Part shown: positions 2,738-59,490 of the stretch, one piece after another
Numbering within the stretch: position 1 is the first letter of the stretch
How the letters are laid out: every line of letters begins with the position of its first letter
NCBI GenBank assembly: GCA_000733915.1
Contig: JPOM01000001.1
Span: forward strand, 496,001-560,000
From: Caulobacteraceae bacterium PMMR1
Lineage (GTDB): Bacteria > Pseudomonadota > Alphaproteobacteria > Caulobacterales > Caulobacteraceae
Direction of reading: 5' to 3'
Length of the DNA: 64,000 nucleotides
The notes under the pieces: generated by a model
The model's input: only the letters and a program-made list of their open reading frames with translations
The model's database searches: none
Told to the model about the DNA's origin: nothing
Program-made: the position numbers and the translations under genes

Positions 2738-3192
2738 GGCCGACCGCGTCGGAGATGGCCCTGGGCGGGTTCCTGGCCCTGATCGAGCCGCCGCCGCCGG
2801 AGTCCGCGGGCGACTTCGCCGCCGGCCGCGCCGGGGCCGCCGCGATGGTCTCCGCCCTGGTGGCGCAAGAGGCCGAGCAGGGCGCCCGGGTCCGCGCCTG
2901 GGAGAACGCGGCGATGCGCGCCCTCTTCGCCAGCGCCGCGGGGCGCGCGCCCGAGGCGCTTCGGGGGCGGCTGAAAGCCGCCGCCGCGGGGGGCGACCTG
3001 GACCTTGGCATCGCGGCGCTCGACCGGGCCAATGCGGAGCTCCGCACCCTGCTCATCGCCCTGCACGAAGCCGCGGAAGCGGACCCGGGCCCCGCCGGCC
3101 GGACGCTGGAGCGCGAGATCCTGGATCTTCTGCTCCAGTCCGCCCGGGCGCGGCGACTTTACCTGCCGACCGAGCCTCCGCCGGCCGGCTAG
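2734..3192 (+). CDS. Hypothetical helical protein, third gene of phosphotransferase operon
   Basis: 152 residues from ATG 2734, overlapping the phosphotransferase stop in ATGA. The sequence is Ala/Glu/Arg/Leu-rich and predicted all-helical, with no signal peptide or membrane segment. I do not recognise the family by motif. Tight coupling to the phosphotransferase and the DUF7064-like protein suggests the three act together, perhaps with this one as a small accessory subunit; that is inference from position. The gene ends 4 bp before the converging SapC-like gene. Confidence 0.7.
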   Translation: MRPTASEMALGGFLALIEPPPPESAGDFAAGRAGAAAMVSALVAQEAEQGARVRAWENAAMRALFASAAGRAPEALRGRLKAAAAGGDLDLGIAALDRANAELRTLLIALHEAAEADPGPAGRTLEREILDLLLQSARARRLYLPTEPPPAG

Positions 3193-3196
3193 ACGG

Positions 3197-3976
3197 TCAG
3201 GCGCTCGCGGCTTGCGGCGAGCGCTGCAGGGTCACGGCGATCAGGCGGTCCCAGCCGAACAGCGAGTTCAGGTGCGCATAGATCTGCTGCAGCGCGCCGT
3301 TGTCGCGCAGCTCCGCCAGCTTGTCGGCCGGCAGCGCGTTGAGCTTGGCCTCCGACACGCCGAAGTAGTCCGCGATCTGGATCGGCTCGCCCGCCGTCCC
3401 ATCCGGATTGCGCGGCGTGAACATGGCCTGCTTGGACTCGAGCAGGTCGAGGTCCCGCAGCATCTGCACGAAGGACTCGGTGCGCTGGCGCTCGGTCTCA
3501 AAGTCGGTGCAGAACTGGATGCAGTTCCGGGCGAATTCGGTCGGCTCGCCGTTCTCGAACAGTCGAACCTCGCCGTCTTCCGCGATCATCGGAGCGGCCC
3601 GGTCGATGCAGACCAGCAGGCGCTGATTGCCCTCGTCGTTGGCCAGGACGAAGGGATAGCGGCGGATGAAGGCCGGCACATAAGCGTCGGCCTGGAAGAT
3701 GCCGTCCTTCACAAACAGGTTCTCGTTGGGCCGGATGCTCATGACGGCCAGCGGCGCATAGGCTTCGCCGCCGAAGATGATGGGATAGCAGGCGCCGGCC
3801 GGACCGAACTCGGTGACGGTCAAGGGCACCGCGTGGGCGGTCTCGGCGAAGGCGAAGGGCTTGTCGACCCGGTTCAGCCCCAGCCGCCCGTGCACCTCAG
3901 GGTTCAAGGGCTCAGGACGCTGGTAGAACAGCACGTTCCCGGCCAGGGCGCCGCCGGCGTCTTCAGTATTCGACAT
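3197..3976 (-). CDS. sapC: SapC family protein
   Basis: 259 residues from ATG 3976 (MSNTEDAGG), preceded by AGAAG-type purines. The frame stays open upstream to 4108 but that stretch is low-complexity and unlikely to be translated. The core contains FAFAETAHAVPLTVTEF, YPIIFGG and a segment on facing the highest-ranked peptides (PFVLANDEG), typical of the SapC family first named for Campylobacter S-layer loci and common in Caulobacterales. Biochemical role is not established. No S-layer or secretion genes lie near it here; it is a single gene converging on the phosphotransferase operon and divergent from the RimK fusion. Confidence 0.85.
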   Translation of the reverse strand: MSNTEDAGGALAGNVLFYQRPEPLNPEVHGRLGLNRVDKPFAFAETAHAVPLTVTEFGPAGACYPIIFGGEAYAPLAVMSIRPNENLFVKDGIFQADAYVPAFIRRYPFVLANDEGNQRLLVCIDRAAPMIAEDGEVRLFENGEPTEFARNCIQFCTDFETERQRTESFVQMLRDLDLLESKQAMFTPRNPDGTAGEPIQIADYFGVSEAKLNALPADKLAELRDNGALQQIYAHLNSLFGWDRLIAVTLQRSPQAASA

Positions 3977-54666: not shown

Positions 54667-55118
54667 CGATGTCCGCCCTCGCCCAGCAGCTCGGCGCGGT
54701 AGGTCTTCTGCCAGACGTAGCCGCCGTAGGTCCCGATCGCGAACATCAGCGCGCCGAGCGCGAGCGCCGGCCAGTGCAGGCCATAGCTGCCCTTCAGCGC
54801 CGCCGCGAGGGAGAACAGCACCAGATAGATGCCCGCCAGGGTCAGGGCGATCGGTCGCGTGCGCCCGCGCCGGTAGCCATTGACAAAGAAGCCCAGCCGC
54901 CGGCGGCCGAGCACGAAGTAGACGAGGGCGGCGACGGCGATGAGGCCCTCGATGATCAGCGTTCCCTTGTCCGACGCCGCCTCCGAGGCGACCAGCCCGC
55001 CGAGCATGGCGCCGAAAATCGCATGCATGTAGACGGGGCAGCGCATCTTGTCGGCAAGCTGGTTGCGCGACGCCTGGGCGCTCTCCAGCGCCGCGGCCGC
55101 GAACTGTGCGTCGGTCAT
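54663..55118 (-). CDS. Four-helix membrane protein paired with winged-helix regulator
   Basis: 151 residues from ATG 55118, chosen because AGGAG lies nine bases upstream; in-frame ATGs at 55142 and 55178 lie inside the operator-promoter. After a short helical N-terminus come about four membrane segments (VYMHAIFGAMLGGLVA, TLIIEGLIAVAALVYFVLG, PIALTLAGIYLVLFSLAAAL, HWPALALGALMFAIGTYGG). Function unknown; pairs of this kind with HTH_34 regulators recur in proteobacteria. It is the first gene of the two-gene operon. Confidence 0.8.
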   Translation of the reverse strand: MTDAQFAAAALESAQASRNQLADKMRCPVYMHAIFGAMLGGLVASEAASDKGTLIIEGLIAVAALVYFVLGRRRLGFFVNGYRRGRTRPIALTLAGIYLVLFSLAAALKGSYGLHWPALALGALMFAIGTYGGYVWQKTYRAELLGEGGHR

Positions 55119-55134
55119 CGGGGTGGTCTCCTCA

Positions 55135-55202
55135 CTTTCCATGTCGGAAAGCGTATCGGCGACTTTCCAACTCGTCAAGTTAAAGCTTTCCGATGCGGAA
55201 AG
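55135..55202. promoter_or_regulatory. Twin operator CTTTCC-N5-GGAAAG with a third half-site
   Basis: Two inverted repeats of the same sequence, CTTTCCatgtcGGAAAG at 55135-55151 and CTTTCCgatgcGGAAAG at 55186-55202, lie with centres 51 bp apart, close to five helical turns. A lone CTTTCC is at 55163-55168 between them. They flank the promoter of the membrane protein/regulator operon and are the probable binding sites of the winged-helix regulator encoded by that operon. Confidence 0.75.
55150..55178 (-). promoter_or_regulatory. Promoter of the membrane protein/winged-helix operon
   Basis: On the minus strand TTGACG (55178-55173) and TACGCT (55155-55150) are separated by exactly 17 bp. Predicted +1 near 55143 gives a 25-nt leader with an AGGAG site. 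The -10 overlaps the proximal operator by two bases and the spacer contains the GGAAAG half-site, so bound regulator should exclude RNA polymerase. Confidence 0.6.
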
Positions 55203-55245: not shown

Positions 55246-55252
55246 CGGCGAG

Positions 55253-55336
55253 TTCTCCGGGGCGCCCGCAAGGGCTGAGACCGGCTTAGGCCGGAACCCG
55301 CCGAACCTGATCCGGGTCATGCCGGCGAAGGGAGTT
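55253..55336 (+). ncRNA. TPP riboswitch (THI element)
   Basis: The conserved THI-box strings are present: GGGGCGCCCGCAAGGGCTGAGA at the 5' side (start of the pyrimidine arm; first 20 bases 55259-55278) and ACCTGATCCGGGTCATGCCG plus GCGAAGGGA at 55305-55332 on the 3' side. P1 can form between TTCTCC near 55253 and GGAG near 55331. It lies 150 bp before thiC, its usual target, and should lower thiC expression when thiamine pyrophosphate is bound. Very secure by sequence motif. Confidence 0.95.
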
Positions 55337-55351
55337 GAACCGATCCGCTCA

Positions 55352-57316
<1,965 letters not shown>

Positions 57317-57323
57317 GGCGCGC

Positions 57324-58156
57324 TCAGAGCGCGGCGGCCGCCGGGCTGGCGGGCTTGCGCCGGGCGGGATGGACGAGGGCCGTCAGGGGGCGCTCCAGCG
57401 CCGCATAGGCCACGAGGCCCGCCGCGATGCCTGCGGCGACATAGAGCGGCAGCGCTACGGCCGGCAGGCGGTGCGTCAGCGGAGCGAAGAGCTTGACCGC
57501 CAGCGAGATCGCCAGGCCGTGCACGAGGTAGACGGAATAGCTGGCGTCGCCGAGCCTTTTCAGCGCGGGCCAGTCCGGCGTGCGGCCGGCATGATCCACG
57601 GCCAGCGCCCCCCAGACCACCAGCAGGGCGGGCGCGCCTCAGTAGAGCGGCCGCAGCAGGCCGTTGGGGTCGGTCGGGACCCACGAGCTGCACCGCAAAA
57701 AGGCCGACGCCGAGGGCCGCCGCCCCGGCGCCGATCGCCGCCCCCTCGCGCCGCCAGGAAAGGCACCCCGCGTCCAGACTTCCGCGAGCCAGACGCCGGC
57801 GATGAACTCGAGCATCAGCGGGCTCGTATAGGTCTGCAGCGCCTGGCCGGCGGGTCTGGCGAGCGCGCCCGCCACAACGAGCCCGACCGTGACGGCGCTC
57901 AGTGCCATGGCTTGTCTCGCCGCCGGAGGCGAGGCTGCCCAGCTGCTGCACGAACAGCGTGGCCAGGAAGAGCGCAAAGGCGAAGCCGCCGTCCAACAGG
58001 CCCTCGGTGAGCCGCAGTCCGCGCCTGCGGCCGCGCGCGGGGGGCAGGACATAGACGCCCGGCTGCGGCCCCATAGGCTGCCGGCGAGCGGCGGTAGGCC
58101 CGCACCGGCGCGCGGCGCACATAGACCCCGGGCTCGGGGCTTGCGATGGAGGTCAT
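57324..58156 (-). pseudogene. Disrupted acyltransferase-3-like gene, possibly chimeric
   Basis: ATG 58156 overlaps the stop of the export/GH16 gene in ATGA, so a coupled gene did start here (MTSIASPEPGVYVRRAPV). Coding signal then hops frames: FAFALFLATLFVQQLGSLAS near 58.0 kb in one frame, SPLMLEFIAGVWLAEVW near 57.8 kb in another, and a clean acyltransferase-3 C-terminus (LGDASYSVYLVHGLAISLAV) at 57324-57620. At least three frame changes are needed. The usual N-terminal acyltransferase helix is missing, and the start looks like a different membrane protein, perhaps an ExoQ/O-antigen-ligase type. In-frame stops are present, including one at 57639. Confidence 0.6.
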
Positions 58157-59490
58157 GGGCCGAACCGGTACATGCGGATGTAGTCGAGGGAGAACGCGGC
58201 CGGCCAGCGCGTGGTCGCATCCGGCTCGCCGGCCCAGACGCCGCCCACGGCCAGATTGGCCAGGATGTACATGGGCGTGCGCATATCGGCGGGCGTGGCC
58301 GTCCGCAGGGTCTCCACCCCGTCCAGGTAGAACACGACCTCCCGGGCGTCCCAGGCCACGCCATAGGTGTGGAAGCCGCCGTCGGCGGGATGCACCTCCG
58401 TCTTCTTGGTCGGGACATAGTTGGAGTGGATCGTCTGGAAGGCCTTGGTCGGATCGCCGATGCTTTCCATGACGTCGATCTCGGGCGGCCAGCCGCCGCT
58501 CGCGGGCAGGAGCCAAACCGCCGGCCAGAGCCCCTTGCCGGCGGGCAGCTTCACGCGGGCTTCGAAGTAGCCGTACTGCTGGGCGAAGCGACCGCGGGTC
58601 GTGATCAGGCCCGACACATAGGGCAGGCCGAGGGCGGCCTGTTCCACCGGGCTGGCCGGGCGCGCGATTAGGTCCAGGATCCCGTCGTGCAGGCGATAGG
58701 GTTGAAATCCGAACGGCCGTTGCGCCGGGTCGGTCATCTCCGGATCGACGTAGATCTGCCGTTCCTTGTTGCTGGCCAGGGTGCGGACGTCCCGCCCCGT
58801 CTTGCTCCCGTCGCCGAACACCGAGCGCCAGACGCCGTCGCGGTCCTCGGCGTCATGGCCGGTGCGGACGCGGCGAAAGGTTGTGAACTCCTCATCGAAG
58901 GTGAGCACCAGCGGCCGGCCGTCCGGGGCGCGGACCAGGGGCGGGGTCACCGCCGAGCTCGCCGCCCGCGTGCAGCCGGGCAACATCGCCAGTCCCGAGG
59001 CGCAGATGTGGGTGTCCGGCCCCTTCGCCAGGGCCACCGCCTGCATCAGGGTCGTCGGACCCGTCAGGGGGAAGATGCCAGGCGCGTTGACCGCGCCGTC
59101 GACGGTGATGCGCTCGCTCTGGGCGTCCTTCACCGCGACGGCGACCTCGGCGTGCTTGACGTAGCTGGACTCGAGCTTGGTCTGGATGTCGGTCGCGAGC
59201 TGAGCCGTGGTCTTGCCGGCGGCCGGCACCGCTCCGATCAGGGGCATGGTCACGCGGCCGGAGGAGTCGATCTGGACGGTGCGGTTCAGGTCGTTCAGCT
59301 GGAAGACCGAAACGTCCAAGGTGTCGCGCGGTCCGATGCGATAATCCTCGCCGGCCGCCAGCCCCGTACCCCCCTTCAGCGCGGCTGCGGCGAGCGGCGC
59401 GCTGGTCGCCGGGGCGTCGGCGGCGACGGCGGGTCGAGCGAGGGCGGCCAGCGCCAGGCTGGCGGCGGTAATCGTCAGTAGCCGGCTCAT
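58153..59490 (-). CDS. Chimeric protein: polysaccharide-export N-terminus fused to GH16 glycoside hydrolase
   Basis: 445 residues from ATG 59490 with GAAGG eight bases upstream. Residues 1-26 are a signal peptide. About 45-160 is a Wza/GumB-like polysaccharide export domain (YRIGPRDTLDVSVFQLNDL, VTMPLIGAVPAAGKTTAQLA, then the SLBB-like ITVDGAVNAPGIFPLTG). This stops abruptly at ALAKGPD. After CASGLAMLPGCTRAAS, which looks like a buried lipoprotein signal, comes GH16 (VLTFDEEF, GYFEARVKLPAGKGLWPAVW, catalytic EIDVMES near 336-342). GH16 enzymes of this type cleave beta-glucans or succinoglycan-like EPS. The fusion is in frame; it may result from a deletion. Confidence 0.8.
   Translation of the reverse strand: MSRLLTITAASLALAALARPAVAADAPATSAPLAAAALKGGTGLAAGEDYRIGPRDTLDVSVFQLNDLNRTVQIDSSGRVTMPLIGAVPAAGKTTAQLATDIQTKLESSYVKHAEVAVAVKDAQSERITVDGAVNAPGIFPLTGPTTLMQAVALAKGPDTHICASGLAMLPGCTRAASSAVTPPLVRAPDGRPLVLTFDEEFTTFRRVRTGHDAEDRDGVWRSVFGDGSKTGRDVRTLASNKERQIYVDPEMTDPAQRPFGFQPYRLHDGILDLIARPASPVEQAALGLPYVSGLITTRGRFAQQYGYFEARVKLPAGKGLWPAVWLLPASGGWPPEIDVMESIGDPTKAFQTIHSNYVPTKKTEVHPADGGFHTYGVAWDAREVVFYLDGVETLRTATPADMRTPMYILANLAVGGVWAGEPDATTRWPAAFSLDYIRMYRFGP

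Follow-up and report, generated by a model that had tools for sequence, protein, structure and literature searches.

How is a small two-gene operon of Caulobacteraceae bacterium PMMR1 controlled, and does its control extend to the divergent thiC gene? The operon lies in a window of 64,000 nucleotides (the window being the whole stretch of DNA that we analysed) and encodes a membrane protein and a winged-helix regulator (Table 1). The earlier note on this DNA had read two copies of CTTTCC-N5-GGAAAG in front of the operon as twin operators of an autoregulatory switch. Our results show that the observation is sound, and that the case for autoregulation is better than stated. The number of operators was wrong, and neither looping nor an effect on thiC is supported. 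We consider it likely that a dimer of the regulator represses its own two-gene operon, its sole target, through three 17-bp operators, and that the signal to lift this repression comes by way of the membrane partner.

Table 1. Features of the operon, its promoter region and the neighbouring thiC (positions in the window)
Feature	Position	Strand	Sequence, basis or remark
HTH_34 winged-helix regulator, 103 aa	54355..54666	-	PF13601, E=2.1e-24
Membrane protein, 151 aa	54663..55118	-	N-terminal helix 2-24 and four long helices in the model; without a Pfam family
Shine-Dalgarno-like GAGGAG	55128..55133	-	sequence; 9 nt from ATG at 55118
Operator 3 (proximal)	55135..55151	-	CTTTCC-N5-GGAAAG, exact; CTTTCCGACATGGAAAG
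Predicted -10 TACGCT	55150..55155	-	inferred from sequence; 17-bp spacer to -35
Operator 2 (middle)	55163..55179	-	CTTGAC-N5-GGAAAG, 2 mismatches; CTTGACGAGTTGGAAAG
Predicted -35 TTGACG	55173..55178	-	sequence and column conservation aligned on operator 2
Operator 1 (distal)	55186..55202	-	CTTTCC-N5-GGAAAG, exact; upstream of -35; CTTTCCGCATCGGAAAG
TPP riboswitch	55248-55350	+	Rfam match, 71.7 bits; upstream of thiC
thiC	55484-57316		divergent from operon

The two exact palindromes, operators 1 and 3, stood up to coordinates and shuffles alike: their centres are 51 bp apart by pattern match in the window, as the earlier note had it. Chance does not explain this pair. Dinucleotide shuffling of the window, repeated 300 times, produced no exact palindrome, and only one pair among the window's 48 perfect 6-5-6 inverted repeats has identical half-sites less than 100 bp apart. 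A loose search that tolerated two mismatches found three matches in the window against a shuffle mean of 1.25. Hence, the evidential weight is on the exact pair and not on the loose count. The core TTTCC-N5-GGAAA occurs twice in the whole 2,673,433-base genome, both times at the operon promoter. With one mismatch allowed, the motif matches one other place in this genome, and so does a control with the reversed pattern.

Once the promoters of orthologous operons are aligned, the twin operators give way to three sites. Named genomes supplied 39 of our orthologue loci, other genomes of the family 30, and the phylum at large another 7. Left out before counting were a 29-residue fragment at a contig end (L042), the duplicates L048, L053, L055 and L070, and the own-genome pattern matches L001-L003. 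The 71 distinct loci that were counted, the window's own among them, are related, and the counts are not independent: 54 loci have three sites, 12 have two, 2 have one and 3 have none. The earlier note would have been given up if orthologous promoters lacked the motif; instead, two or three sites are retained in 66 of the 71. This layout spans Caulobacteraceae, Gammaproteobacteria, actinobacteria and Verrucomicrobia. Three sites are found, among others, in Brevundimonas, Caulobacter, Asticcacaulis, Sphingomonas, Aliidiomarina, Paraglaciecola, Aliikangiella and one Verrucomicrobiia genome. Within the actinobacteria, two sites occur in Dietzia (L034) and in Microbacterium (L029), and one in Kutzneria (L027). 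The other one-site locus (L040) is a distant relative, and its single site may be due to chance. The loci that show no site are L030, which is cut by a contig end, L035, where the operator-promoter stretch is lost, and the distant L041.

On the operon strand the sites follow each other as operators 1, 2 and 3, with centre spacings of 23 and 28 bp in the window. Our classification fixed the distance between sites 1 and 2. In a separate search that left it free at 18-35 bp, 51 of the 53 loci came out at 23 bp (48 of 50 distinct). Both exceptions, L009 and L066, are classed as two-site promoters. Of the 54 triple loci, 53 have sites 2 and 3 separated by 25-33 bp; at L037, the sites detected form two 23-bp steps, with no site 3 at threshold. 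Judging by the alignments, site 1 is not essential to the layout, because 12 loci lack it and keep sites 2 and 3 as their pair.

These spacings bear on the earlier suggestion of cooperative repression or looping. Cooperation fits the constant 23 bp between sites 1 and 2. The looping model would have a DNA loop bridge the outer two sites, which are exact and 51 bp apart in this genome, and would make the middle half-site an auxiliary. Such a loop is very improbable, for the following reasons. First, bare DNA does not readily form a loop as short as 51 bp. Second, the distance between sites 2 and 3 varies while that between sites 1 and 2 does not, so that the outer distance, compared between loci, ranges over the greater part of a helical turn. 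This spread is easier to reconcile with steric blocking than with a phased loop. Third, site 1 is missing altogether from the 12 loci with the shorter layout.

The half-site that the earlier note had placed between the palindromes is there, and it is one half of a full operator that is fused to the -35 box. Similarly, the promoter TTGACG-N17-TACGCT has the boxes and the spacer that were claimed for it, but it is not free-standing between two sites, being built into sites 2 and 3. The left half of operator 2 (CTTGAC) contains the -35 box. The last two bases of the -10 box overlap the first 2 bp of operator 3, and the expected start site also falls within this operator. A scan of the window for sigma-70-like consensus promoters leaves the operon's own promoter unflagged, and the -10 columns are weakly conserved across orthologue promoters. 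In operator 2, the right half GGAAA is nearly invariant among the two- and three-site promoters, and the left half has TTG in 58 of these 66 (29 TTGCC, 27 TTGAC and 2 TTGCT). The G is specific to operator 2, because operator 1 mostly has TTTCC at the equivalent columns. A change from CTTTCC to CTTGAC or CTTGCC is as expected if operator 2 doubles as a -35 box.

From spacing and sequence we infer the following promoter logic. Regulator dimers would occupy the three operators. Occupation of sites 2 and 3 would block RNA polymerase, because the -35 box is part of site 2, and the -10 end and the expected start lie under site 3. At site 1 a neighbouring dimer would probably bind cooperatively, 23 bp from site 2, and sharpen repression. 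The fixed 23-bp step suggests that neighbouring dimers touch, and it is repeated in the L033 promoter, where four sites are found and the extra operator lies one more step upstream. One could also argue that the regulator activates the operon from site 1, which is just upstream of the -35 box, and that sites 2 and 3 shut the operon off at high concentration. We regard this as very unlikely: site 2 covers the -35 box, two-site loci keep the pair 2-3, and it is site 1 that is missing in 12 loci. The geometry of the sites favours repression over activation.

It would also be possible to view the palindromes as RNA hairpins, in a terminator or leader structure, and not as DNA operators. A terminator scan does flag one of them (55202-55186, minus strand), with a tail unlike a classical T run. 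However, the predicted start falls inside site 3 and downstream of sites 1 and 2, so no complete hairpin would be transcribed from the operon promoter. Across orthologues the half-sites are conserved and the middle of the 5-bp centre varies freely, and no Rfam family other than TPP reaches threshold in the window. The hairpin interpretation is thus extremely improbable.

Some loci have departed from the common pattern in ways of their own. The L032 operators have the form GTTTCC-N5-GGAAAC: at each of the two sites, the outer base has changed in one half and correspondingly in the other. L035 (Glaciecola sp. 33A) is almost the same as L032, but the stretch with both operators and the promoter is missing, and a premature stop interrupts the regulator frame. 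Operators and regulator thus appear to be lost together there. Simple decay of a silent operon explains this loss as well, because the promoter is lost too, and an assembly error is possible. In L049 the operators are about 960 bp upstream of the regulator, and by eye a tandem duplication of the membrane gene is suggested.

Which protein would recognise these sites? The regulator scores 85.9 bits against the HTH_34 profile (gathering cut-off 27) and aligns with profile positions 2-80 of 80. With the ArsR/SmtB metalloregulator model NF033788 it scores 32.3 bits and does not reach the NCBIfam cut-off of 55. Its structural model (pLDDT 95.5) has a winged helix-turn-helix fold, for which PDB entry 1ub9 is the best structural match and is also found by profile search (E=1.4e-08). 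This entry is PH1061 of Pyrococcus horikoshii, a member of the HTH_34 family and the nearest solved fold; it is titled transcriptional regulator homologue, nothing more.

The motif and the regulator occur together. The tandem pattern is found in 11 of 398 genomes of the phylum, an orthologue of the regulator (E<=1e-18) in 13, and both in 10. Hence, 10 of 13 orthologue genomes carry the tandem motif versus 1 of 385 others (Fisher p about 1.3e-16). The three orthologues without the exact tandem pattern carry variants, and the seven orthologues from outside the family have two or three sites each. An exact palindrome lies within 2 kb of the orthologue in at least 30 of 39 orthologue genomes, to which another search adds G000, G009 and G016. 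Paralogues provide the control. None of 18 HTH_34 proteins from the family's genomes, with 34-47% identity, has the motif, and any site in the upstream stretch examined scores at most 9 of 12. These paralogues have DGNL or QGNL in place of SDSVLSKH in the recognition helix. Because proteins with another helix lack the motif, the motif appears to track the SDSVLSKH-type recognition helix. Phylogenetic footprinting, co-occurrence and the paralogue controls together strongly support what the earlier note had proposed, namely that the HTH_34 protein regulates its own operon. In principle, some other protein could bind the motif.

Does the regulator have a second target? Away from the operon there are 28 exact palindromes in 110 family genomes without an orthologue, and at least 8 in genomes with one. 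A reversed-pattern control gave 32 in 149 family genomes by hand count. Because these numbers are close, we find no second target among the off-operon palindromes listed for the 149 family genomes. Two of the 28, in G115 and G120, resemble true operators by eye.

Related cassettes are also found on plasmids. Of the 49 plasmid records that carry homologues with less than 60% identity, 26 are from Streptomyces. Six of these loci were examined apart, outside the 71: L123, L124 and L128 have two sites that score at least 10 of 12, L126 and L127 have one, and L125 has none. On the Arthrobacter plasmid of L128 a gene annotated as SdpI family protein (2988-3353) lies convergent beside the plasmid copy of the cassette.

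The earlier note had also allowed that the distal site might affect thiC. As a divergent switch, the sites would control thiC as well, and position makes this conceivable: site 1 ends 46 bp before the match to the TPP aptamer and 14 bp before a weak proposed promoter, TTGTGG-N17-TAAGGT. The sigma-70-like scan flags no thiC promoter there, although it passes over the operon's own promoter as well. Of 68 orthologue loci searched, thiC is matched at two, upstream in the window and downstream of the regulator in L057, although at least 600 bp beyond site 1 were available in 57 of the 59 distinct operator-pair loci in this set. Control of thiC is therefore unsupported, because the motif follows the operon and not thiC, and thiC is already controlled by the TPP riboswitch. 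A shared switch is most improbable. Elsewhere in this neighbourhood (57295-58418, minus strand), several short frames overlap and give, by eye, the impression of a single membrane acyltransferase-like gene interrupted by frameshifts.

If the regulator represses its own operon, what relieves the repression? Most likely the signal would be relayed by the translationally coupled membrane protein, because the 103-aa regulator has no separate ligand domain. The GTG start of the regulator and the stop of the membrane gene share 4 bp (GTGA). An ORF with at least two hydropathy segments at a cut-off of 1.4 lies immediately upstream of the regulator in 62 of 64 orthologue loci. For comparison, this rule picks out 7 of 46 co-directional neighbours at the named loci and 3 of 26 within the window. 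The two misses are L029 and L038; in L038 the intervening ORF is transposase-like by eye. Under a stricter rule (1.6, at least three segments) the counts are 43 of 64 against 6 of 46 and 0 of 26. In 17 of 18 cases, distant paralogues come after a larger membrane ORF, with 4-6 segments at 1.6 (controls 4 of 46 and 0 of 26), and this suggests the membrane partner as the source of the signal. All these contrasts are indicative only, because the loci are related and gene calling was crude. Comparison of the window's membrane protein with one paralogue membrane ORF gave no alignment. Among non-orthologue HTH_34 loci, one of which is the same gene as L079, 6 of 8 also follow a membrane ORF, with 3-7 segments. 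L112 (G000:C1:2384552-2384788), a second HTH_34 gene of its genome, has a DGNLS-type helix, follows a five-segment membrane ORF and is without the motif.

Structure comparisons tell little about the membrane protein itself. Its model is confident (pLDDT 94.1), and at the strict hydropathy cut-off two membrane segments are counted. Profile search reveals no clear relatives in the PDB (best E=0.051), Foldseek finds no match at E<=0.001, and the best VIA-align Z of 6.9 is within the range of unrelated helical bundles; this does not show that the fold is new. SdpI is not among the Pfam matches listed for this protein, nor, over 50 members (membrane proteins), among the 25 listed of 46 families; a remote relationship to SdpI is conceivable.

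The closest described logic nevertheless appears to be that of SdpR and SdpI. SdpR is a small winged-helix (ArsR-like) protein, and the name of the sdpRI operon puts the regulator gene first. Here, in contrast, the regulator is an HTH_34 protein, the membrane gene precedes the regulator gene, and the model of the membrane protein shows four membrane helices. What is shared is a two-gene operon that encodes a polytopic membrane protein and an autorepressor, the latter putative in our case (PMC1626106, in excerpt). According to the same excerpt, SdpI of Bacillus subtilis holds SdpR at the membrane upon sensing SdpC. By analogy, the membrane protein here may provide the signal, as a sensor or anti-repressor. 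For the operators, E. coli NanR offers a parallel, with three dimers on adjacent operator repeats (PMC8012715, in excerpt), as we propose here. NanR, however, is a GntR-type repressor of sialic-acid genes, and repeat architecture and target differ. The excerpts of the CsmR paper (PMC13286277) and of the TrpP/SdpI paper (PMC11995493) do not describe the present system. Among the matches listed in the open full-text literature, no title or abstract opening points to a study of the operon, the motif or the pairing of HTH_34 with membrane proteins.

Our study thus provides a concrete operator code (CTTTCC-N5-GGAAAG in three sites, with a 23-bp step and an embedded -35) for a family to which none of those listed matches, as far as titles and abstract openings tell, is dedicated. 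It also ties the HTH_34 family to uncharacterised membrane proteins across several phyla and on plasmids. One could speculate that HTH_34 proteins are generally one half of a widespread switch, in which a private autorepressor is captured or released by a co-encoded polytopic membrane protein upon an envelope signal. Each paralogue group would have its own partner and operators, here with 23-bp packing over a promoter whose -35 box is an operator half. We put this forward tentatively and think it rather doubtful in such generality. If the membrane partner does control the repressor, many unannotated gene pairs would become testable as envelope sensors.
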